From assembly GCA_030706635.1 (NCBI GenBank), contig JAUZOD010000024.1, positions 1 to 56,928 on the forward strand: a DNA stretch of 56,928 nt, written 5' to 3'. Shown here in pieces: positions 12,489 through 31,864 of this stretch (its first letter is position 1; each line of letters starts with the position of its first letter). The notes under the pieces are model-generated. The model was given only the letters and a program-made list of their open reading frames with translations. It ran no database searches and had not been told where the DNA came from. The stretch is from Bacteroidota bacterium. GTDB lineage: Bacteria > Bacteroidota > Bacteroidia > Chitinophagales > Chitinophagaceae. The position numbers and the translations under genes were made by a program.

Positions 12489-13625
12489 CTAAAATCCTGC
12501 GCCATGGGTTTTCCTGATCAATCTGCGAAGGAGACCTGGAAAGGGTTTCAGCAACCTGATGAGCAGAGCAGACCAAAATGGATTTCCAAAAAAACGTTGA
12601 AGGATGCGGCCAGTGTTTAAGCGGGCAGCAAAATTTCTTTTCCATTCCCTCTGGTATGTTGTTTCCAGTTGACTGCGTTCACACGAATGCCCTAAAAACT
12701 TATCCAGGCAATCCGCCGCAATCTTTGATCCATGAAGTGCCATGCTCATTCCGTTTCCGCATAAAGGAGTGATCATACCGGCCGCGTCTCCCACGCAGAG
12801 CACGTGATTCTCCACCTGCGTTTTTTTGGCGAAGCTGATCTGGGATATCGTCAACGGGTCTTCATAAAGATGTTCAATGCTGTCGAATACTTCCCGGAGT
12901 TTTGGATTTCGTTTAAGTATCCCGTTTTCCATTTCTTTAATGGACTGACCGCTTTTTTTTAAATTCCTGGAAAGAGTAAGGTAACAGAGGCAATACCGGT
13001 TGTCTTCAATTTTGGAGATTCCGCAATAACCGCCCCGGAAATTGTGCAGCGCTATCTGGTTCTCCGGGAATGCCGCCCGGACATGATATTTTACACCTAC
13101 ATAGTTTTTACTGCCGGCCGCATTTGTAAAAGGCCGCTTCCATTTAACATCGAGATTGCTTCTTTTCCCATAACCCGCGCAGGCCGTGCGGGCTCTGAAT
13201 AGACCTGCGGATGTACTGATGTTGAACAGATCTCTCTTATAGCTGATGTCCGTTACTTTTGTGTTCTCCAGAACGGTTGCTCCGGAATTTTTAGCAATCC
13301 TTGCCATCGCCGCATCGAGTTTGAACCGGCTGATGCCAAAACCACCCAGCGGCAGGGTTTCCGTAATAGAATATCCATCGGGGGCGCTGATCGTTACCTG
13401 GCTGATTCGCGGCAGATTCCATTCATTCAGGGGCAAACCCAGTTTCAATAGGAAATCCCAGCTTTCCATGCTGATGTATTCGCCGCAGACTTTATGAAAA
13501 GGATAGGTTTCCTTTTCCAGCAACAACACGCGATAGCCTTTGCGGGAGAGCAGGATAGCGAGAGATAGTCCTGCCAGTCCGCCACCCACAATGGCTGTGT
13601 CGTATAGGATGGGAGGATTGGTCAT
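12489..13625 (-). CDS. FAD-dependent oxidoreductase, geranylgeranyl reductase-like
   Basis: This 378-residue protein has an N-terminal FAD dinucleotide fold (IVGGGLAGLSLAILL), the family segment FHKVCGEYIS, and a second FAD motif (CVGDAAGMITPLCGNGM). These match the geranylgeranyl reductase/aromatic hydroxylase superfamily. It could reduce prenyl double bonds or hydroxylate an aromatic ring; the sequence alone does not decide. It is the last gene of a four-gene leftward cluster. The start at 13625 overlaps the methyltransferase stop by 4 bp (ATGA). The position suggests a tailoring step after polyketide formation and methylation. The C-terminus is basic and hydrophobic (LLIRLLKPFPGLLRRLIRK), perhaps for membrane contact. 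Confidence 0.8.
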   Translation of the reverse strand: MTNPPILYDTAIVGGGLAGLSLAILLSRKGYRVLLLEKETYPFHKVCGEYISMESWDFLLKLGLPLNEWNLPRISQVTISAPDGYSITETLPLGGFGISRFKLDAAMARIAKNSGATVLENTKVTDISYKRDLFNISTSAGLFRARTACAGYGKRSNLDVKWKRPFTNAAGSKNYVGVKYHVRAAFPENQIALHNFRGGYCGISKIEDNRYCLCYLTLSRNLKKSGQSIKEMENGILKRNPKLREVFDSIEHLYEDPLTISQISFAKKTQVENHVLCVGDAAGMITPLCGNGMSMALHGSKIAADCLDKFLGHSCERSQLETTYQREWKRNFAARLNTGRILQRFFGNPFWSALLIRLLKPFPGLLRRLIRKTHGAGF

Positions 13626-14311
13626 GATGGAACAATAACCAGCCACCGGAATGCCCAGTTCCAGGTGATTGTGTAATCAGGAATTCCGGCTTTATCCAGG
13701 ATGACTTTTAATTCTTTTCTTTTAAAACCTCTGAGCACAGACAGGGGCGCATCGTTTTTCACGAGATAGGATCTGGAAAAAAGGGCAGTCAGTATCCGGA
13801 TGGCATAATAAGCAAGCGGATGCCGGTGCAGATCGTTGATAAAAAATCCAATCCGGGACTGCGCTTTCATCCAGCGGAACATGTCCGGGAGTTGCGATTC
13901 GCTGAAGTGATGACAAAACAGGGAAGAAAACAGAATATCCGGTTTTTCGTCAAATATAACCTGCCGGTAATCGCTCAAAATAAATTGCGGTTTTTTCTTC
14001 CAGGCCACTGTCTGCGCCACCTGGATACAGTCCGGGTTCAGATCAATGCCGGTGCAGTTCAGACTTATTTTTTTTTCAGGAGTATTTTCCTGAATGGTCA
14101 GCAGATTATCTCCTCCTCCGCAGCCGATTTCGCACAGGCTGATTTTTTGGTGACCGGAAGCGAGGGCTTTGAAGCCTTTCCGGGTTATGGCATGGCCACC
14201 GAGCCAACGATTAATCACCTGAAGCTCGTACAAATTCCGGGTTATGTCCGCCGACGGAATACCCGGCTGGTCAAGCAGTTCTGACTTATGACTGCGCGGG
14301 GAAAAATACAT
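13622..14311 (-). CDS. Class I SAM methyltransferase of the type III PKS cluster
   Basis: About 229 residues from the ATG at 14311; a TTG at 14332 would add seven. SAM motif I reads EIGCGGGDNLL and is followed by an acidic GIDLNPDC turn. The fold is that of small-molecule methyltransferases such as those acting on polyketide or quinone rings. It lies between the type III PKS (stop at 14336) and the FAD enzyme (4-bp overlap), so one transcript is nearly certain. By analogy with the actinobacterial srs operon (PKS, methyltransferase, oxygenase), it may methylate a resorcinol-type product. The substrate is inferred, not shown. Confidence 0.8.
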   Translation of the reverse strand: MYFSPRSHKSELLDQPGIPSADITRNLYELQVINRWLGGHAITRKGFKALASGHQKISLCEIGCGGGDNLLTIQENTPEKKISLNCTGIDLNPDCIQVAQTVAWKKKPQFILSDYRQVIFDEKPDILFSSLFCHHFSESQLPDMFRWMKAQSRIGFFINDLHRHPLAYYAIRILTALFSRSYLVKNDAPLSVLRGFKRKELKVILDKAGIPDYTITWNWAFRWLVIVPS

Positions 14312-14335
14312 AATCAGTGTAAAAAGATTCAAGAT

Positions 14336-18686: not shown

Positions 18687-21600
18687 TCAATTGTCCATTG
18701 AAACATTTCCCGTCCGTTTCAAAACCCCCCAGTTTTGCAACTCGCCCTTGATTGCCCTGCGGAAGGATTTGAAAAGCACATACCACATCAGCCACCGCCA
18801 GACGAGTCTTTGCGGAATTAGCCAAAGTAGTTTCGTTATGTTTTCCTTTTCAAAGCTGAAAGCCAGGATGGCGACCGCCACATCCACGAGCATAAAGATC
18901 AGATAATAGGTGCCAATCCGGGCGGCGTTACCGGTAAGTAAACCGACCAGCATTAAAAAATCGGCCAGCGGTATAACGGCCGGAATGATATACTGGAAAA
19001 GAAGAATATTCGGCAGCGCAATCCAGCCCAGGGACGGATTACTGGTACTAAAGAGCATGTCCCGGTTTTTCCAGAAGGTTTGCAGCACGCCGAAGCTCCA
19101 GCGGAACCGTTGTTTTATGAACATCTTCAGGGTTTCCGGGGATTCAGTCAGGGCAATCGCCGCGGCTTCGTTCTGTACCAGGTAATTACAGCGGAGCAAA
19201 CGTATGGTCAGGTCGCAGTCCTCGGCCAGCGTATCCGTAGTAAATCCTCCCGCTTCTTCAATGGCCGCTTTACGGAAAGCCCCGATGGCGCCGGGCACGA
19301 CGGTGATGGCGTTCACATACGCAAAAGCCTTGCGGTCGAAATTCTGACTGCTGATATATTCGATGGATTGCCAGCGGGTCAGCAGGTTCACTTTATTCCC
19401 CACTTTTACATTCCCCGCAACTGCACCCACTTTTTTGCCGTTCGGATATTCTATGGGGCCGAAATGCATGACCAGCTTGGAGATTGCGTCCGGCAGAAGT
19501 TTGGTGTCGGCATCGATGCAGATCAGAAATTCCGCCGATGATTGCATGATGCCATAATTCAATGCAGAAGCCTTGCCGCCATTGGGTTTTGTAAAAACAC
19601 GCACCTGGGGATAGTTTTTGAAAGCCTGGATTACTCTGCGGTAAGTATCGTCTCTGCTTCCGTCATCAACAAAAATAATTTCATAACGCGGGTAATCAGT
19701 CATTAGCAGATTCTGAACAGAACTTACGGCATTTACTTCTTCATTAAATGCAGGTACGATAATGCTAACCAGCGGCGCATCTCCGGCACCGGCCGACCAG
19801 AATGGTTTTAAACCGAAATCTTTTTCCCAGCGATGCTGTTTGCTGGCGATTACGGCCATGAACAGGATACGCAACAGGGAAAGAATAATGAAAAGGATGA
19901 ACAGCGAAGCCAGTAAATGACTGCTCAGGTAGGCAGTTACGGCAACGAAATAATTTAACTGAAGTAAATAATAGCCACTGCCTCTGGGTACAGAAGGCAT
20001 AAGGTCTTCTTTTGTCTTGCCCAGTAAATCGGCGATAGTGGTAAATGTATAGCCCCGCTCCTTAAAATAATGAATAATCTGTGGCAGCGCTTCAACAGTG
20101 GCCGCGCGGCCATCTCCCCCGGCATCATGCAACAGGATGATATTTCCGCTTAGATTTTCACTGGTCATTTCTGCCTTGCGCCGGATCACCCGGGCCACAA
20201 TGGAGTCCGCAGGGGTGCCCGGTACCCAGTCCAGCGGGTCAATGGACTCTCCGATGTCAAGATAATTTTTTTGCCGGGCGATAGCAACCGGAATAAGCTC
20301 TTCCGCTTTCTGCGGTTCAAAATCGGCGTTGTAAGGCGCCCGGAATAATATGGTGGAATGCCCGGTGATGCATTCTATGAGCAGACGGGTGGCGTCCATT
20401 TCAATAACGGCGCGCTTTCGGCTTACTTTGGCAATGTTAGGATGTGTGAATGTATGATTTCCGATCTCATGCCCCTCGTTGTAAATTCTTTTTACCAGGG
20501 GGATATTATTTTCTGCATTGATACCGACCAGGAAGAATGCGCCCGGCACTTTCTCACGATTGAGAATATCAAGGATCTGAGGGGTATAAACCGGATCAGG
20601 CCCGTCGTCGAAGGTAAGCACCAGTTTCTTTTTATCTTTCGTTCCATATTTTCTGGCGACCCACTTGGAAGGCAGACTGTCGTATCTTTCTTCACTGATC
20701 AGGAGTTCGCTGGTATCCAGTTCCGGCCTGATCTTTCCGCTGGTAGGGCCGCCGATTACATCCAGCACTTCGCCTTCTCCGGAATAGGCCGGTGTTTCAT
20801 CCAGACTGAAAGATTTAACCGTGCTGAACAAATGGAAATCAAAATTTTTCAGGCTTTCCTTGCTCATGTCGTGGTCATAAAAGTCCCACATACGCGAATC
20901 CTCGCTGCCGAGTCGCCAAAGGGCTACCCCGCTGAGACCTGATTCCACGGCAAAACGCATGGAATTAAATGTGGTTGCGGCGTCGGTAAATTGTACCTGG
21001 TGTGTTGCGCCGTTGTCGTCATCATAACTGAAATGGAGGTTATAGGAATCGTTGTCAAAAATGATTTTCCCGTCAAAACTCAGGGCCAGGGTAAGGGCAT
21101 CCTGGTAGCTGATGGATTCGGCAGATATGACTTTGTTGTTGTCATCCATTTTCCAATTGTATCCAAAACCGGCAAGCGCGAGAATCATCTTGTTGCTGGG
21201 GATCTTTCTGGCTGCATCATCTATGGCGCCTTCAATCCATTTCTGGTGACAAATCGGGCCGGGCTGGGTACCTTCGGAATATTGATCATACGCCATCACA
21301 ACAATGTAGTCGTTGTATTTTGATAACTCGGAAAAATTGTAATCCTGATTAAACGGAATAACATCCTGGGAAACCAGCAGACCCCGGTTATGCATTTTTT
21401 GATATAGTTCCTGCTGGAAATTCACCAGCACTTCGTTCTTTTTTTCCTGTAGTTCTTCGAAGTCGATGTTGATCCCGTCCAGTTTAAGGCTGTCCAGGGT
21501 ATGCAGGATATCCTGAATAAGACGTTCGCGTTTCTTAGGATCTTCCAGGATGCGGTGAACCACATCGCCCCGGAAAACGGCATTGATATTGTTGGAGAGC

Positions 21601-22169
21601 ATGGGGACAATTTTAACCCCGGCCTTATTCATGATGTCGAGCGCTTTTTGATCTATGTCTACGGAAAGCTGATCGGTATTGGGATTGAGGAAGAACCATT
21701 CCGGAAATACCATATTTAAACGGGAGATATTCTGTTCCAGCGAAGTGTAAGATGTGGGTGCCCAGTTTACGTAGAAAGCCGCCCGGATTCCGGCGGCGAA
21801 CTTCTTGAAGGAATAAAAACTCGAATCGGCCTGTACAATGATCCCGTTTTTCTTCCGGAATCTTTTTGGGATTGGATAGGCGCCGGCCCTGTATGCTTCT
21901 TTTTCATTGATGTATTTCCGGAAACCGCCATATTGTTTGCCTATTTTGCTTTTGTTAAAAAGCCACCCGGAACTGTCCAGCAACACTTCCTTTTCTTTTG
22001 CTCCGAGCATATTGGGCAAAGAAGGGGTGTAAACGCGGGTCATGGTTATGGCAATAATAATGATCCCCAATACCAGGAAAAGTGCCAACAGGCGGCTGCT
22101 CCACTTAAACCGTGACCAACGCGAGGAGGAACTGGTTTGAAAAACCTGGGTCGTAAAATTTCCAGCCAT
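18687..22169 (-). CDS. Trifunctional GH18 / polysaccharide deacetylase / GT2 synthase
   Basis: A 1160-residue membrane protein. An N-terminal membrane segment (about 26-44) is followed by a GH18-like domain with LDGINIDFEEL, the spore-type variant of DxxDxDxE. Next is a NodB/CE4 deacetylase domain (TFDDGPDP, HTFTH, FRAPYN, LLHDAGG). A central membrane pair (about residues 735-780) leads to a processive GT2 domain (IVPAFNEE, DDGSRDDT, DADTKL, AEDCDLT, QRFRWSFG), and the C-terminus has further membrane segments. Known relatives synthesise beta-linked amino-sugar polymers. The logic resembles PgaB plus PgaC in one chain, so export and trimming of an N-acetylglucosamine polymer is plausible. It lies 74 bp upstream of the E2 gene on the same strand. 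Confidence 0.85.
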   Translation of the reverse strand: MAGNFTTQVFQTSSSSRWSRFKWSSRLLALFLVLGIIIIAITMTRVYTPSLPNMLGAKEKEVLLDSSGWLFNKSKIGKQYGGFRKYINEKEAYRAGAYPIPKRFRKKNGIIVQADSSFYSFKKFAAGIRAAFYVNWAPTSYTSLEQNISRLNMVFPEWFFLNPNTDQLSVDIDQKALDIMNKAGVKIVPMLSNNINAVFRGDVVHRILEDPKKRERLIQDILHTLDSLKLDGINIDFEELQEKKNEVLVNFQQELYQKMHNRGLLVSQDVIPFNQDYNFSELSKYNDYIVVMAYDQYSEGTQPGPICHQKWIEGAIDDAARKIPSNKMILALAGFGYNWKMDDNNKVISAESISYQDALTLALSFDGKIIFDNDSYNLHFSYDDDNGATHQVQFTDAATTFNSMRFAVESGLSGVALWRLGSEDSRMWDFYDHDMSKESLKNFDFHLFSTVKSFSLDETPAYSGEGEVLDVIGGPTSGKIRPELDTSELLISEERYDSLPSKWVARKYGTKDKKKLVLTFDDGPDPVYTPQILDILNREKVPGAFFLVGINAENNIPLVKRIYNEGHEIGNHTFTHPNIAKVSRKRAVIEMDATRLLIECITGHSTILFRAPYNADFEPQKAEELIPVAIARQKNYLDIGESIDPLDWVPGTPADSIVARVIRRKAEMTSENLSGNIILLHDAGGDGRAATVEALPQIIHYFKERGYTFTTIADLLGKTKEDLMPSVPRGSGYYLLQLNYFVAVTAYLSSHLLASLFILFIILSLLRILFMAVIASKQHRWEKDFGLKPFWSAGAGDAPLVSIIVPAFNEEVNAVSSVQNLLMTDYPRYEIIFVDDGSRDDTYRRVIQAFKNYPQVRVFTKPNGGKASALNYGIMQSSAEFLICIDADTKLLPDAISKLVMHFGPIEYPNGKKVGAVAGNVKVGNKVNLLTRWQSIEYISSQNFDRKAFAYVNAITVVPGAIGAFRKAAIEEAGGFTTDTLAEDCDLTIRLLRCNYLVQNEAAAIALTESPETLKMFIKQRFRWSFGVLQTFWKNRDMLFSTSNPSLGWIALPNILLFQYIIPAVIPLADFLMLVGLLTGNAARIGTYYLIFMLVDVAVAILAFSFEKENITKLLWLIPQRLVWRWLMWYVLFKSFRRAIKGELQNWGVLKRTGNVSMDN

Positions 22170-22295: not shown

Positions 22296-24116
22296 TCAAT
22301 AATCCAATTCCAGTTTCAGCTTTTCCTTTAGTTCTTTCAATAGCGGGTATTGTTCTGCCATTTGCTGGAATTGCTCCCTTTTACTGAGTGTCCTTTCCAG
22401 GTGGATGTGCTGGTTTGCGTTTTCCCGGATGGATATGGAGAAAGAAAGATTTTTGTTGTTGAAAACCTGCTGCAGTAAATCCGACAGATTTCTTTTTTCC
22501 TGTTCGATGAACCGTTGCTCCAGATTGTTGTTGGTGAGGATCTCGAAGGTTTGATCGTCCAGGATCTTCAGCACTGCTCCATCGAAACTCTGCGCTGATG
22601 AATTTTTATTTTCCTTCAGTTCCGCTGTGAACCGGTTCCAGGTAAGCTGGAGCAACTCCGGCTCCAGCGGTTTGGGCAGATCAGTCGCATCCGAATGATT
22701 CCGGCTCAACACCTGCTGGCGGATTTTTGACAGGACACCCAGGCTGGTAGACGGAGCGAAAGGGGATGATGTTTTTACCGGGAGACTGGTAGCTTGTTTA
22801 GGGGGTTTTTGTTCTGCAACTTCCTCAATTATTAGTCTGGCGCCTGGTTGGGTTTCGCCGGCAGGCATCATCAATAGCGGTTTTTCGCCCAGGGTATTTC
22901 CGGGGCCTGTAGTCAGTTTTTTTTCCCTGATCTCCAATGGATGCAGGGATCGGTAGGCAACTGGTTTTACAAGCTCAACTCCTTTTTTTTTATCATCCGT
23001 TCCCGTATCCTGCAGGCGAAGCGCCTGCCCGAGATAGGACAGCTTGATAAGGGCCAGTTCCACATGCAGTCTTTTATTCCGGGCTGCTTTATATTGCAGA
23101 TCTGATTCACTCAGCACGTTTAGTGCACTAATCAGGAAGCCGGCATCGGTTTCTTTTGCGGTAGCATGATATTTTTCCTTGAACTCGGCAACTGTTTCCA
23201 GCAATCCCGCCGCTTTTTCATCTTTGCAGATGAGCAGGTTGCGGATAAATTCGGCAAATCCTTCCAGCAACAGATCACCTTCAAACCCCTTCCGGTTGAT
23301 TTCGTCGTAAATCAGGAGTGCTTCGGACAAATTCTGCTGACGGATAACTTCCAGTAATTTAAAATAGTAACCGGCATCCAGAATGTTCAGGTGCTCGAGG
23401 GTATCTGAATAGGTAAGTTTTCCGTTTGAAAAACTGACCATCTTATCCATTATGCTGAGGGCATCGCGCATGCAGCCTTCACTTTTTTGCGCAATGATTT
23501 CGATGGCAGATTGTTCGGCGTCGATACTTTCCTTTGCGCAGATCTCCCCGAGGTGATGGATAATGTCCTGATTGGAAATGCGTTTGAAATCGAAGACCTG
23601 GCAGCGGCTGATGATCGTTGGCAGGATCTTGTGTTTTTCTGTTGTGGCCAGAATGAAGATTACATAAGGTGGGGGTTCTTCCAGGGTTTTTAAAAAGGCA
23701 TTGAATGCGGCCGAAGTGAGCATATGCACTTCATCTATGATGTATACCTTGTATTTCCCTGCCTGCGGCGCGAAACGGACTTGTTCCACCAGGGAGCGGA
23801 TATCATCTACCGAATTATTGCTGGCCGCATCGAGTTCGTGGATGTTCAGGGAACTGCCTTCATTAAAGGAAATGCAGGAATGGCATTCATTGCAGGCTTC
23901 TCCATCTGCAGCAGGATGCTCGCAGTTGATGGCTTTGGCGAGGATGCGGGCACAGGTGGTTTTCCCCACACCGCGCGGTCCGCAAAATAAAAAAGCATGC
24001 GCCAACTGGTGATTGCGTATTGCGTTTTTCAGGGTGGTAGTGATGTGTGACTGACCCACCATCGTCGAAAAATCCTGTGGCCTGTATTTTCTGGCGGAAA
24101 CAATAAACTTATTCAT
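22296..24116 (-). CDS. dnaX: DNA polymerase III subunits gamma/tau
   Basis: A 606-residue clamp-loader ATPase. Walker A is GPRGVGKTT (46-54). A four-Cys zinc knuckle lies at residues 65-81 (C65, C75, C78, C81). DEVHML is the Walker B motif, and TLEEPP and the arginine-finger region SRC follow. Domains I-III occupy about 1-370; the rest is the tau-specific region. It loads the beta clamp and organises the replisome. A run of nine A's at codons 376-378 could yield a truncated gamma form by -1 slippage (see separate entry). The start is the ATG at 24116. The 126-bp gap upstream of its own stop region shows no clear terminator. Confidence 0.95.
   Translation of the reverse strand: MNKFIVSARKYRPQDFSTMVGQSHITTTLKNAIRNHQLAHAFLFCGPRGVGKTTCARILAKAINCEHPAADGEACNECHSCISFNEGSSLNIHELDAASNNSVDDIRSLVEQVRFAPQAGKYKVYIIDEVHMLTSAAFNAFLKTLEEPPPYVIFILATTEKHKILPTIISRCQVFDFKRISNQDIIHHLGEICAKESIDAEQSAIEIIAQKSEGCMRDALSIMDKMVSFSNGKLTYSDTLEHLNILDAGYYFKLLEVIRQQNLSEALLIYDEINRKGFEGDLLLEGFAEFIRNLLICKDEKAAGLLETVAEFKEKYHATAKETDAGFLISALNVLSESDLQYKAARNKRLHVELALIKLSYLGQALRLQDTGTDDKKKGVELVKPVAYRSLHPLEIREKKLTTGPGNTLGEKPLLMMPAGETQPGARLIIEEVAEQKPPKQATSLPVKTSSPFAPSTSLGVLSKIRQQVLSRNHSDATDLPKPLEPELLQLTWNRFTAELKENKNSSAQSFDGAVLKILDDQTFEILTNNNLEQRFIEQEKRNLSDLLQQVFNNKNLSFSISIRENANQHIHLERTLSKREQFQQMAEQYPLLKELKEKLKLELDY
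22975..23028 (-). promoter_or_regulatory. Candidate slippage/-1 frameshift site in dnaX
   Basis: In the dnaX sense, a perfect 7-bp hairpin with a 3-nt loop (23028-23012, GCAGGCG and its complement) is followed 20 nt later by A9 (22991-22983), then GGAGTTGA. In frame, A9 encodes Lys376-378. A -1 shift on A AAA AAA, or insertion of one A in the transcript, gives Arg-Ser-stop (TGA at 22977-22975). The result would be a 380-residue gamma-like protein ending just after domain III. E. coli dnaX uses A AAA AAG, and Thermus dnaX uses a nine-A run. The role of the hairpin is uncertain. Confidence 0.5.
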
Positions 24117-24166: not shown

Positions 24167-25327
24167 TTATAAGATGGGGTGTCTTTTAAATTCCCGGGTG
24201 CGATCAAAAATGTAGCGGTAGGTGGTGAGCTGCCTGCTTTGAAAGTTATTTCCCAGGGCCCTCACCAGGTTGACCATTTTCGGATTGAAATCGCCGATCC
24301 ATTGCATTTCATATTCCGTATAGTGAGTGGTGCGAACCAGCCTTCCGGTTTCCACAATCAAAAAAGCATCTACGCCCTTTCCCTGAAATTCCGGTACAAT
24401 GCCAAAAGCGATGCCGGCAAATTTCTTATTGGGCTTCGTTCTCTTTATCCACAAGAATTTGAGTTTGTCCAGCAATCCGAACTTCCCATTGAGGTATTTA
24501 AACCATTGGTTGACGTCGGGAATATTCACGAACATGGCTATGGGCGTCTCCTGGTGATATACAAACCAGATCAGACGCGGGTCAATCACCGCCTTCATTT
24601 CTTTGAACATGTGGTTAACCTGCTCAAACCGGAGTTGTTTCATGCCGCCATGACCGGACCAGGCCTTATTATAGATCTCGGTAAAATCGTGCGCATATTT
24701 GGATAGATTTTTCAACTCAATGTGCCGGGCCTGTAACGCGGTATCCTCAGCCACCTTATTGTGACGCTGCACCACTTTGCCCGTAAGGTCTTTTTGGGGA
24801 TCCATGCCAAAGCAAAGCTGATGAAAGAATACCCGGAATCCGTAGGATTCAAAAAGGGCGGCATAATAAGGCGGGTTAAAATTCATACGGTACATCGGTT
24901 CGTGAAATCCTTCCGTTACCAATCCCCACCAGGTATCCCGTTCCCCGAAATTGATCGGCCCGTCCATGGCTTCCATTCCATTTTGGATTAGCCAGTGTTT
25001 TGCAACATCGAAAAGCATATCGGCGGCAACCTGGTTATCAACACAATCGAAAAAACCAATACCGCCCACGGGGAAATCATCTCCTTTTGACTTGTATCTT
25101 TTATTTACAAAAGCAGCAATCCTTCCGAGTTTTTCGTTGTCTTCCGAAAGCAATATCCATCGGGTGCAGTTTCCGTACCGGAATGCCTTATTCAGTTTCG
25201 GATCGAAAACCTGGTCAATATCCTTATTCAACGGCCGGATATAATTCGGAATATTTTTGTGGATATACACATTGATTTCAATAAAAAGATCAGCCTCTGC
25301 GGGCGTCCTCACTTCTATCAGTTTCAT
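24167..25327 (-). CDS. GNAT-like protein of unknown substrate
   Basis: About 386 residues from the ATG at 25327; a TTG at 25348 would add seven. The C-terminal part contains FGIVPEFQGKGVDAFLI, a good match to the acetyl-CoA pyrophosphate-binding turn of GNAT acetyltransferases (Q/R-x-x-G-x-G/A). An EYEMQWIGDFNPKMVNLVRALG segment follows, like the last helices of that fold. The long N-terminal half, with DGPINFGERDTWWGL, may be a second, degenerate GNAT-like domain. No signal peptide is seen. Substrate and pathway are unknown. It is tail-to-head with the membrane protein gene upstream (33 bp). Confidence 0.6.
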   Translation of the reverse strand: MKLIEVRTPAEADLFIEINVYIHKNIPNYIRPLNKDIDQVFDPKLNKAFRYGNCTRWILLSEDNEKLGRIAAFVNKRYKSKGDDFPVGGIGFFDCVDNQVAADMLFDVAKHWLIQNGMEAMDGPINFGERDTWWGLVTEGFHEPMYRMNFNPPYYAALFESYGFRVFFHQLCFGMDPQKDLTGKVVQRHNKVAEDTALQARHIELKNLSKYAHDFTEIYNKAWSGHGGMKQLRFEQVNHMFKEMKAVIDPRLIWFVYHQETPIAMFVNIPDVNQWFKYLNGKFGLLDKLKFLWIKRTKPNKKFAGIAFGIVPEFQGKGVDAFLIVETGRLVRTTHYTEYEMQWIGDFNPKMVNLVRALGNNFQSRQLTTYRYIFDRTREFKRHPIL

Positions 25328-25360
25328 ATTTTGCGGTGCAGTTGGCAACGATAATACGAT

Positions 25361-26563
25361 TTAAATGGAATGCAACTCCGGCCAAATCAATTTGTAAAGC
25401 GGCGGAAATACCTTAAAGTCGCGTATATAAGTGATTTGAATGGTGGGTATGCATAAATTAATAATGAAGATAGTGAATACGGCACGCTCCGTTCTTTCAC
25501 TATGCGTTTCATGGAATTTTGTGTAAAAAAGGAAAAATCCGATTATAACGGCAATAAAGCCATAAGCCAGGCTTCGGGTAATGTCCTGTACAGAAACGCT
25601 GATGACGAGTACCGAGATCAGGCCAAAAAAATAAACCGGGAAATCAATCTTCCTGGACCTGAGCCACCAGGCGGATAGAACGACCATGATCCAGGCAGAT
25701 TTATAAGCAAGCAGTGCGGCGGCAAAGGAAAGCCAAACCGGAAATCCTTTTTGAAAACGAAGAAAAAGAGAAATGCCGTTGTCTCCGCCGAAGGGCACAG
25801 CCAGGCCCATTGACCGCTTAAGCCAAAACCGGATCAGGAAATAGATAAGGTAAGCGGAAAGAAAGGGAATGGCCGGGTAAAACGGATGTTTTCCCGGTTT
25901 TTCCGGTTGGTTATTTCTTAACCGCTGATAAACGAATGCAAGCAAACTGCCAAAAAGCGCTCTTTCATCTGTAAAAAAGGCCAGGAGCAGACAACTAAAA
26001 AGGATCAGGTAATTCCTTTCGGAGAGGGAAAGCGCCAGGAACATAAAGGCGATACCGTCGTTCCAGAGCAGGGTGTCGTGAAAAAAGCTTTTTCCGAGAT
26101 AAAGGACCGCAAAATTCATTGCAATCAAAGCAGCAAATAAACGGTTTTGAGAATATTCAAAAACCAGGCGGAGCAGACACATAAAGAAAATGAAGCCGGC
26201 AATATTGTTTATAACATACAGACCCAGCATTCTGGATAATAAATCGTGCGCTGGAATGGCCTTGGCAAGCAGGGCGGGAACGAAACGAAAATCAAGTTTG
26301 GAGGCGTGGGTGGCTTCTGCCGCCTCATTGTGGTTAAATGGATGGTCGATCTGCTGATTGATCGCGTTGTAATTTTCGATGAGAACGGAATAAGATCTGG
26401 ATTTTTTCAGGCGGGCAGTATTAAAATTGCCATAGTTCGGCATGGAAACCAAAATGCAGTAAAGAACACAGATAAGGGAAACCCGGATCCTCCAATGCCT
26501 GCCCTTTATAAACGGTGAGAACTTATTTTTAAAGAAGACAAACAGCCTGTCCATATTTATCAT
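25361..26563 (-). CDS. Polytopic membrane protein of unknown function
   Basis: A 400-residue protein with an N-terminal hydrophobic segment (about 28-42) and roughly nine more along the chain. A soluble loop of about 60 residues follows the first segment. The layout (one segment, a periplasmic loop, then a bundle) recalls GT-C-type glycosyltransferases or O-antigen-type membrane proteins, but I see no diagnostic acidic motif in the first loop. It is unrecognised. Upstream is the atpD promoter region, so the two genes are divergent. Confidence 0.55.
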   Translation of the reverse strand: MINMDRLFVFFKNKFSPFIKGRHWRIRVSLICVLYCILVSMPNYGNFNTARLKKSRSYSVLIENYNAINQQIDHPFNHNEAAEATHASKLDFRFVPALLAKAIPAHDLLSRMLGLYVINNIAGFIFFMCLLRLVFEYSQNRLFAALIAMNFAVLYLGKSFFHDTLLWNDGIAFMFLALSLSERNYLILFSCLLLAFFTDERALFGSLLAFVYQRLRNNQPEKPGKHPFYPAIPFLSAYLIYFLIRFWLKRSMGLAVPFGGDNGISLFLRFQKGFPVWLSFAAALLAYKSAWIMVVLSAWWLRSRKIDFPVYFFGLISVLVISVSVQDITRSLAYGFIAVIIGFFLFYTKFHETHSERTERAVFTIFIINLCIPTIQITYIRDFKVFPPLYKLIWPELHSI

Positions 26564-30667: not shown

Positions 30668-31864
30668 AAATCGATAATCTTTTTCCAGCGCAAATTGATA
30701 TACCTCTTTCCATGCCGCACCAATTAATGCTGCGACCAGCAAAAGTAGTGTTGACTGCGGCTGATGAAAATTGGTGATGAGGCCGCGGATGATTTTAAAG
30801 CGATATCCCGGAACAATGAATAGCTGCGTTCTGGTCATAATTTTTTTTTCAGGCTGTTTCCCCACCCATTCCAGCAGGCACTGAAGGGAATCTTTTACGG
30901 TGATCAAATCTTCCATGCGATAGGCGTCCCATTGATTCAGTGTTAGTTCAGCGGCGGTAATTTGTTTATCTGCGGCTACTTTTAAGCCAAGCCAGTAAAG
31001 GCTTTCGACCGTTCTCAACGAGGTGGTTCCAACGGCCAGCACCGGATCCTGCAGCTTGTCGGAAAGCTGTTCTAAGCGATCTGCCCTTATCTCGATGAAT
31101 TCCTCATGCATGATATGATCTCTCAAAAACTCCGATTTCACCGGCATGAATGTGCCGGCGCCTACATGCAATGTGATGTGTAGCTGGTCAATTTGTTTTT
31201 GTTTCAGGGATTGAAAGACCCCGGTGCTGAAATGGAGGCCTGCGGTTGGTGCGGCCACGGAACCCTCTTCCGTGGCATAAATGGTTTGATATCTTTCCTC
31301 ATCTGTGGCTTCGGCATGACGCTTCAGATAAGGAGGCAGCGGAATGGAACCCAGCAGGTGAAGTACTTCCGCAAAAGGAAGCGAGGCAGGCAGCCACGTA
31401 AATTCCACAACAAAATAGTCTGTTTTTTTTTCAATGAACTGGGCGTGCAGGACAAGTTGCGCCGTTTTTCTTTCGAGTATCGTTCCTTTTTTCCATTTGG
31501 ATGCGCCGCCAATTAAACATTTCCAGCGTCCTTTTTCTTTTTCAGTCATGGCCTGATGAAAACCCGTGACGGGGTCCATGGGTTCCAGGCAAAAAATCTC
31601 GATCTCAGCCCCTGTGGGTTTGCTGAAAATCAGTCGCGCCGCAATCACTTTACTATCATTGAATACCAGCAGCGACTTTGATGAGAGGTAATCCGCAATC
31701 TGTGCGAACTGGGTTTCCCTGATTTTATCCGGTTGCCAAACCAGCAATTTGGAGGCATCCCGCCTGGCCAAAGGATATCTGGCAATCTTTTCTTCAGGCA
31801 GCAGGTATTGAAATTCTCGCATAGACAACTGGGCGGGAAAGCTTTCGGGTATGGTCATTTTCAT
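30608..31864 (-). CDS. queA: S-adenosylmethionine:tRNA ribosyltransferase-isomerase (long QueA)
   Basis: A 418-residue member of the QueA family, which transfers the ribosyl part of SAM to preQ1 at the tRNA wobble position during queuosine synthesis. Landmarks: LVFNDSKVIAARL, a GAEIEIFCLEP strand, VAAPTAGLHFS, HVGAGTFMPVK, VGTTSLRTVESL and a final NFHQPQSTLLLLVAALIG. It is some 60-70 residues longer than typical QueA, matching the long form I recall in Bacteroidota, which may have diverged in function. Its 3' end overlaps the histidine kinase by 60 bp in the opposite direction. Confidence 0.85.
   Translation of the reverse strand: MKMTIPESFPAQLSMREFQYLLPEEKIARYPLARRDASKLLVWQPDKIRETQFAQIADYLSSKSLLVFNDSKVIAARLIFSKPTGAEIEIFCLEPMDPVTGFHQAMTEKEKGRWKCLIGGASKWKKGTILERKTAQLVLHAQFIEKKTDYFVVEFTWLPASLPFAEVLHLLGSIPLPPYLKRHAEATDEERYQTIYATEEGSVAAPTAGLHFSTGVFQSLKQKQIDQLHITLHVGAGTFMPVKSEFLRDHIMHEEFIEIRADRLEQLSDKLQDPVLAVGTTSLRTVESLYWLGLKVAADKQITAAELTLNQWDAYRMEDLITVKDSLQCLLEWVGKQPEKKIMTRTQLFIVPGYRFKIIRGLITNFHQPQSTLLLLVAALIGAAWKEVYQFALEKDYRFLSYGDGCLFLPYEGNLHSK

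Follow-up and report, generated by a model that had tools for sequence, protein, structure and literature searches.

The dnaX gene of a bacterium of the Chitinophagaceae, located on the minus strand (22296..24116) of the window analyzed here (the 56,928 nucleotides of contig JAUZOD010000024.1, assembly GCA_030706635.1), raises the question of whether a run of nine adenines in its sense strand allows a single gene to yield two clamp-loader proteins. The source genome is a 4.58-Mb draft made up of 162 contigs, and its nearest relatives among 80 named loci are the Chitinophagaceae Longitalea, Terrimonas and Chitinophaga. Frame 0 of the gene is open over all 606 codons and encodes the clamp-loader tau subunit (68.3 kDa; NF011531 over residues 1-605 and TIGR02397, dnaX_nterm, over 6-359). 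The A9 run (22983..22991, minus strand) makes up codons 376-378, all AAA and read as Lys-Lys-Lys, in the sense-strand context GAT GAT AAA AAA AAA GGA GTT GAG. A preliminary description had paired this run with an Arg-Ser-stop ending in the -1 frame, and the sequence bears it out: entered through one extra A, the -1 frame reads AGG AGT TGA past the run and stops after two codons (TGA at 22975..22977, minus strand), with a predicted product of 380 residues and 42.6 kDa. To this we add a stop in the +1 frame, which was not given there. Entered through the loss of one A, this frame reads GAG TTG AGC TTG TAA and stops after four codons (TAA at 22967..22969, minus strand), with a predicted product of 382 residues and 42.8 kDa ending in Glu-Leu-Ser-Leu. 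A slip of one or two bases at the run is hence predicted to give a product of 380-382 residues.

The part common to both products, the clamp-loader core of domains I-III, covers residues 1-362 (23031..24116, minus strand) by Pfam match. The domain III match ends at residue 362, corresponding to position 130 of the 143 in the profile, and the A9 run starts 14 residues farther on, at codon 376; the gamma and tau chains of E. coli (e.g. 1jr3 and 3glh), among them gamma core chains 368-376 residues in length, can be aligned as far as residue 358. Both boundaries place the end of the 380-residue product just past domain III, as had been claimed. A second run, of eight adenines, is found in dnaX at codon 398 (22917-22924, minus strand), about 20 codons past the first, and is followed by an immediate +1 stop.

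The dnaX gene of Thermus thermophilus reportedly undergoes transcriptional slippage, in work said to be that of Larsen et al. (PNAS, 2000). As described in excerpts of PMC1088944 and PMC5009743, that gene has a single tau reading frame, nine adenines in the sense strand and near stops in both non-zero frames, and it yields a shorter gamma. Both Thermus-type sequence features, a run of nine adenines between the core and the tau C-terminal part and a stop in each off frame, are present in the window gene, which likewise has a single tau reading frame and a predicted shorter gamma. It differs from the T. thermophilus gene in belonging to another phylum and in the position of the run, 62% of the way along the gene as opposed to seven-eighths in T. 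thermophilus, in the wording of the PMC1088944 excerpt. In E. coli, following excerpts of PMC5009743 and PMC3711429, gamma arises by a -1 shift at A_AAA_AAG, with a Shine-Dalgarno (SD)-like element upstream and a hairpin downstream; the logic of the products is the same as that proposed for the window gene, with gamma ending early once the frame shifts at a Lys site rich in A. Caulobacter crescentus, according to PMC5009743, arrives at the tau and gamma pair by another route, the proteolysis of tau, in which a protease takes the place of recoding.

We consider it probable that programmed transcriptional slippage of the Thermus type takes place at the A9 run, yielding both tau and gamma in this bacterium. 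RNA polymerase would copy the T9 template with nine, ten, eight or other numbers of adenines. Messages with nine adenines, or with nine plus or minus a multiple of three, would be translated into full-length tau, of 606 residues or with one Lys more or less, and all other messages would lead into the -1 or the +1 frame, where translation would stop after two or four codons and release a gamma-like product of about 380 residues, which would amount to the clamp-loader core lacking the C-terminal part of tau.

To place the run in a wider context, 300 dnaX loci were read from the congeners and the order of the window, a draw on the phylum, a draw on the class and 80 named genomes; the removal of five duplicates and eight incomplete loci left 287 distinct ones. 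In the congener and order set, of 58 genomes, three with a dnaX match were left out (G037, G043 and G056) and three had no clear dnaX (G003, G025 and G040). The phylum and class draws comprised 148 genomes each, of which 146 were matched in either case, and contributed 89 loci and 79 further loci, respectively; since the draws list the best matches first, the sample leans towards closer relatives. A run of 8 to 12 adenines is found at the junction in 226 of the 287 loci (A8 in 2, A9 in 65, A10 in 141, A11 in 16 and A12 in 2), and its length is 9-11 in 222 of these 226. Among the 160 genes analyzed for phase, all with tau in frame, 47 have a run beginning in codon phase 0, 72 in phase 1 and 41 in phase 2, and the amino-acid reading of the run changes with the phase, which indicates that it is the DNA, and not the protein, that is kept.

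This conservation has exceptions. Among the congeners, A9 or longer is present in 21 of 30; of the nine that lack it (L006, L008, L009, L017, L026, L028, L029, L033 and L035), three have A8, and L006, one of the nearest relatives, with 81% identity over the whole protein, carries AAG AAA AAA in its place. No run of A8 or longer is found in 61 of the 287 loci (26 of 87 in the phylum draw), among them L207, from Bacteroides, and all four genomes read from family f77 (L154, L256, L261 and L278). Such exceptions, within the genus and within the phylum, indicate that the run has often been lost; on a DnaX tree built with FastTree, its presence changes at least 29 times against a mean of 55.8 for shuffled labels, tree errors inflating counts of this kind. 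The conservation among relatives that the preliminary description had proposed to check thus holds for most loci and fails in these, and the pattern that it had named as contrary to a decoding role, with mixed AAG and AAA codons and no -1 stop in related species, does not hold for most of the loci read. Taken together, the comparison suggests that recoding at the dnaX A-run is old and widespread in the Bacteroidota. No report of phylum-wide dnaX slippage in this phylum was found in titles and abstract openings of the literature, which is not proof of novelty.

The run might instead be a product of chance, or of a protein-level preference for poly-lysine in the linker past domain III, with no decoding role and with any slippage amounting to noise. 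The exceptions listed above are compatible with this, and so is the abundance of similar runs. Overlapping A9 matches on both strands of the draft genome number 174, and the window contains three further A9 runs in the sense of other genes: two in a queA-type gene of queuosine synthesis (PF02547; 30608..31864, minus strand; runs at 30841-30849 and 31423-31431) and one, followed by an immediate +1-frame stop, in a methyltransferase-domain gene (13622..14332, minus strand; run at 14068-14076). A bare A9 run is unremarkable in this window, and it is the conserved position of the dnaX run that exceeds chance. Within 110 codons after residue 345, A9 or longer occurs in 224 of 287 loci, as against none of 855 equal-size windows in the core of the same genes, where A8 or longer occurs in nine; in downstream windows, some of which possibly extend beyond the gene end, A8 or longer is found in 41 of 638 and A9 or longer in seven. 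Moreover, Lys-Lys-Lys is coded AAAAAAAAA, all A, in 109 of 168 instances at the junction and in none of 23 elsewhere in the same genes. A summed log10 probability of -85 for the Lys codons was set aside as circular, the runs having been picked for being all A. The independence of the run from codon phase, the confinement of all-A Lys-Lys-Lys to the junction, the stops described below, which are tied to the run in both off frames, and the 65 genes that, if their sequences are right, need recoding to express tau at all argue together against chance or poly-lysine, an explanation that we regard as very unlikely.

Of the 161 run-bearing genes that have tau in frame 0, 157 show a -1 stop within six codons past the run, 132 a +1 stop at that distance and 130 (81%) both. 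When the 30 codons after the run are shuffled within each gene, the corresponding values drop to 42%, 31% and 11%, the largest counts in 100 shuffles of the whole set being 79 and 60; in 57 run-free genes, sampled at residues 375, 380 and 385, they are 26%, 25% and 8%. Related sequences are not independent, and a test on tree pairs corrects for kinship in part: in 20 independent, well-supported pairs, the double stop goes with the run in a mean of 11.9 against 0.8 (median p 0.002, range 0.0001-0.065). The -1 stop alone behaves similarly (10.9 against 0.6, median p 0.003), and the association is weaker for the +1 stop alone (10.3 against 2.1, median p 0.039). The run and its two stops are, then, jointly conserved across the phylum. 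The earlier proposal of a gamma-like product through slippage at A9 draws strong support from this comparison, in which run, junction position and off-frame stops are co-conserved; from the same sequences we infer that the message would slip in this organism, that it would do so in some proportion of tau to gamma, and that gamma would be used in the replisome.

The main rival to message slippage is programmed -1 ribosomal frameshifting at A AAA AAA on a message that is not heterogeneous, as in E. coli dnaX. An A9 run lets tRNA-Lys slip by -1 in tandem whatever the phase, the -1 stop is both nearer and better conserved than the +1 stop, and 60 of the 65 genes that need recoding for tau need a -1 shift. 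In addition, an SD-like 5-mer within 18 nt upstream, although rare, is found in 18 of 159 run genes, above the 138 of 5217 control windows (2.6%). Ribosomal -1 frameshifting has, however, no need of the +1 stop present in 132 of the 161 genes, and five loci require a +1 shift; a heptamer would also suffice for it, yet 222 of the 226 runs measure 9-11 adenines. Stops in both off frames are a requirement of message slippage that goes beyond what a -1 ribosomal shift demands, and this, together with the maintenance of the run in all codon phases, leads us to favor transcriptional slippage and to consider ribosomal frameshifting an unlikely explanation.

The surroundings of the run also bear on this choice. 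None of the E. coli features is found in the window gene, which has no in-frame A_AAA_AAG, none of five SD-like 5-mers within the 18 nt that precede the run and no stable downstream stem-loop, but only a weak, interrupted stem; the fold around the site is ordinary (z -1.05), and Rfam gave no match up to E 1 between positions 21500 and 25000 of the window. Across the 159 run genes, downstream structure is slight (mean z -0.46, with 16 of 159 below -2, against a control mean of -0.10, with 9 of 159), and the upstream regions are not unusually structured (mean z -0.22 against -0.10 in the control). The preliminary description had regarded a perfect hairpin 20 nt upstream of the A9 run as an additional feature of the site. 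The hairpin is real, with a 7-bp stem and a 3-nt loop (23012..23028, minus strand), but a perfect stem of at least 7 bp in the 60 nt before the site is absent from all 31 relatives compared (30 of them congeners), two of which have one of 6 bp. Being private to the window gene among the 32 compared, the hairpin was rejected as a stimulator, and its lack of conservation marks it as incidental and not part of the device. As regards tRNAs, the presence of two Lys tRNAs in T. thermophilus has been put forward, in an excerpt of PMC5009743, as a possible explanation of why that species uses slippage rather than frameshifting. The genome analyzed here carries tRNA-Lys(CUU), and tRNA-Lys(UUU) is absent among the 41 tRNA matches in the draft, which leaves the tRNA argument incomplete.

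A different arrangement is found in 65 of the 287 loci, in which frame 0 stops soon after the run, so that gamma is the default product and tau lies in the -1 (60 loci) or the +1 frame (five loci). These reversed, two-ORF genes, of which the window gene is not one, sit behind runs of A9 to A12; two of them (L048 and L039) belong to the order of the window itself, and seven come from family f24 and two from f23, each of these families including one from a single-contig genome (L082 and L079, respectively). If the sequences are right, tau requires recoding in all 65 loci, and some of them could be the result of homopolymer errors in assembly. Genes of this kind have been collected before: as excerpted from PMC3711429 (GeneTack; Antonov et al. 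2013), 17 two-ORF dnaX genes are known from Chlorobi and other groups, nine of them with ten adenines, and slippage is favored as their explanation; the poly-A run has nine adenines in Chloroherpeton and eight and seven in two Chlorobium species. Some of the nine A10 genes may be of Bacteroidota, and the set shares the poly-A run with the window gene but needs a shift to produce tau, which is the default product in the window.

On the DnaX tree, a minimum of 36 changes in the frame of tau is counted, against a mean of 57.7 for shuffled labels. Switching of the default frame in both directions fits slippage of the message. It would also be expected of a contingency run acting at the DNA level, in which insertions and deletions in the A9 run, a type of mutation to which homopolymers are prone, toggle cells between making only tau and making only gamma. 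Tau is expected to be necessary for replication, and cells locked in either state would lack one of the two proteins; near stops in both off frames and a run length held at 9-11 fit instead a steady output from one DNA sequence, and we deem such toggling highly improbable.

A frame-0 stop near the junction is also seen in four loci that have no A-run, from uncultured Bacteroidales or Bacteroidetes. In one of them (L230), the long frame lies in +1; in the other three (L219, L227 and L233), the stop is an in-frame TAG after which the same frame stays open to the tau C-terminus. Searches of the class and the order with L219, read through, as the query led to genus g459 of family f116, where dnaX is matched in 30 of 31 genomes, a TAG is present at the junction in 30 of 30 by nucleotide context and 28 are flagged as having one internal TAG. 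The loci of the UAG type comprise the three just named and L343, L373-L380, L383, L386-L396, L398-L400 and L406-L411. The sister genera g472 and g474 show neither TAG nor run in six loci, and other sampled genera of f116 have A-runs, another stop or neither.

The TAG is embedded in a conserved context. It is directly followed by Ile-Ala-Arg codons in 27 of 27 loci of one batch and in five of six of another, the Arg codon being always AGA or AGG in 25 distinct sequences; in L406 (genome G1030), the motif is missing and a second stop occurs seven codons on, which indicates a broken frame. A hairpin starts 9-10 nt past the UAG in all 25 distinct sequences, with stems that differ among them (CGCC/GGCG, GCC/GGC, GUC/GAC, GCU/GGC, GCCCC/GGGGC and others) and a mean stem score of 7.56, against 2.38 (sd 0.57) in a shuffled control that ignores relatedness. 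A sequence model of the element finds 33 of 41 genomes at E < 0.05, with a single match in each except for one with two, and in the 11 of these in which the place of dnaX is known the match falls within the dnaX stretch identified or immediately after it. No internal stop is seen in rpoB in the matches from 27 of the 41 genomes of the genus, which indicates that TAG is not a general sense codon in g459. Considering these sequence features, the likeliest reading is that gamma would be formed by termination and tau by programmed readthrough of UAG, for which the genus is a candidate case; no report of stop-codon readthrough in dnaX was found in titles and abstract openings of the literature. Rfam searches of L373, L399 and L389 returned only seven matches, which were ignored: every one was to a microRNA family, scored under the gathering threshold and lay some 2 kb away from the UAG element of L389.

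A common denominator of these arrangements might be their output. We hold it somewhat likely that the end of domain III is an ancient recoding point of the Bacteroidota at which the production of a core-only gamma alongside full tau is conserved while the mechanism varies, from slippage with tau as the default, through a gamma default with shifts in either direction, to UAG readthrough. If so, selection would act on having both proteins and not on any particular mechanism. The importance of gamma beside tau was controversial even in E. coli, in the view given in an excerpt of PMC5009743; the phylum-wide signal, the stops in both directions and the repeated switching of the default suggest that many Bacteroidota have been selected to make both, and genes with the run, without it, reversed or of the UAG type offer natural replicates for the study of this selection. 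They also suggest that replisome expression in a major phylum routinely involves programmed slippage of RNA polymerase. Gene callers, for their part, may report many such dnaX genes as broken or short.

Regarding the genes around dnaX in the window, two ORFs lie just upstream on the same strand (24167..25348 and 25361..26563, minus), with no Pfam match at E 0.001, and a further ORF on the minus strand (18687..22169) encodes 1160 residues with matches to glycosyl hydrolase 18, polysaccharide deacetylase and family 2 glycosyltransferase.
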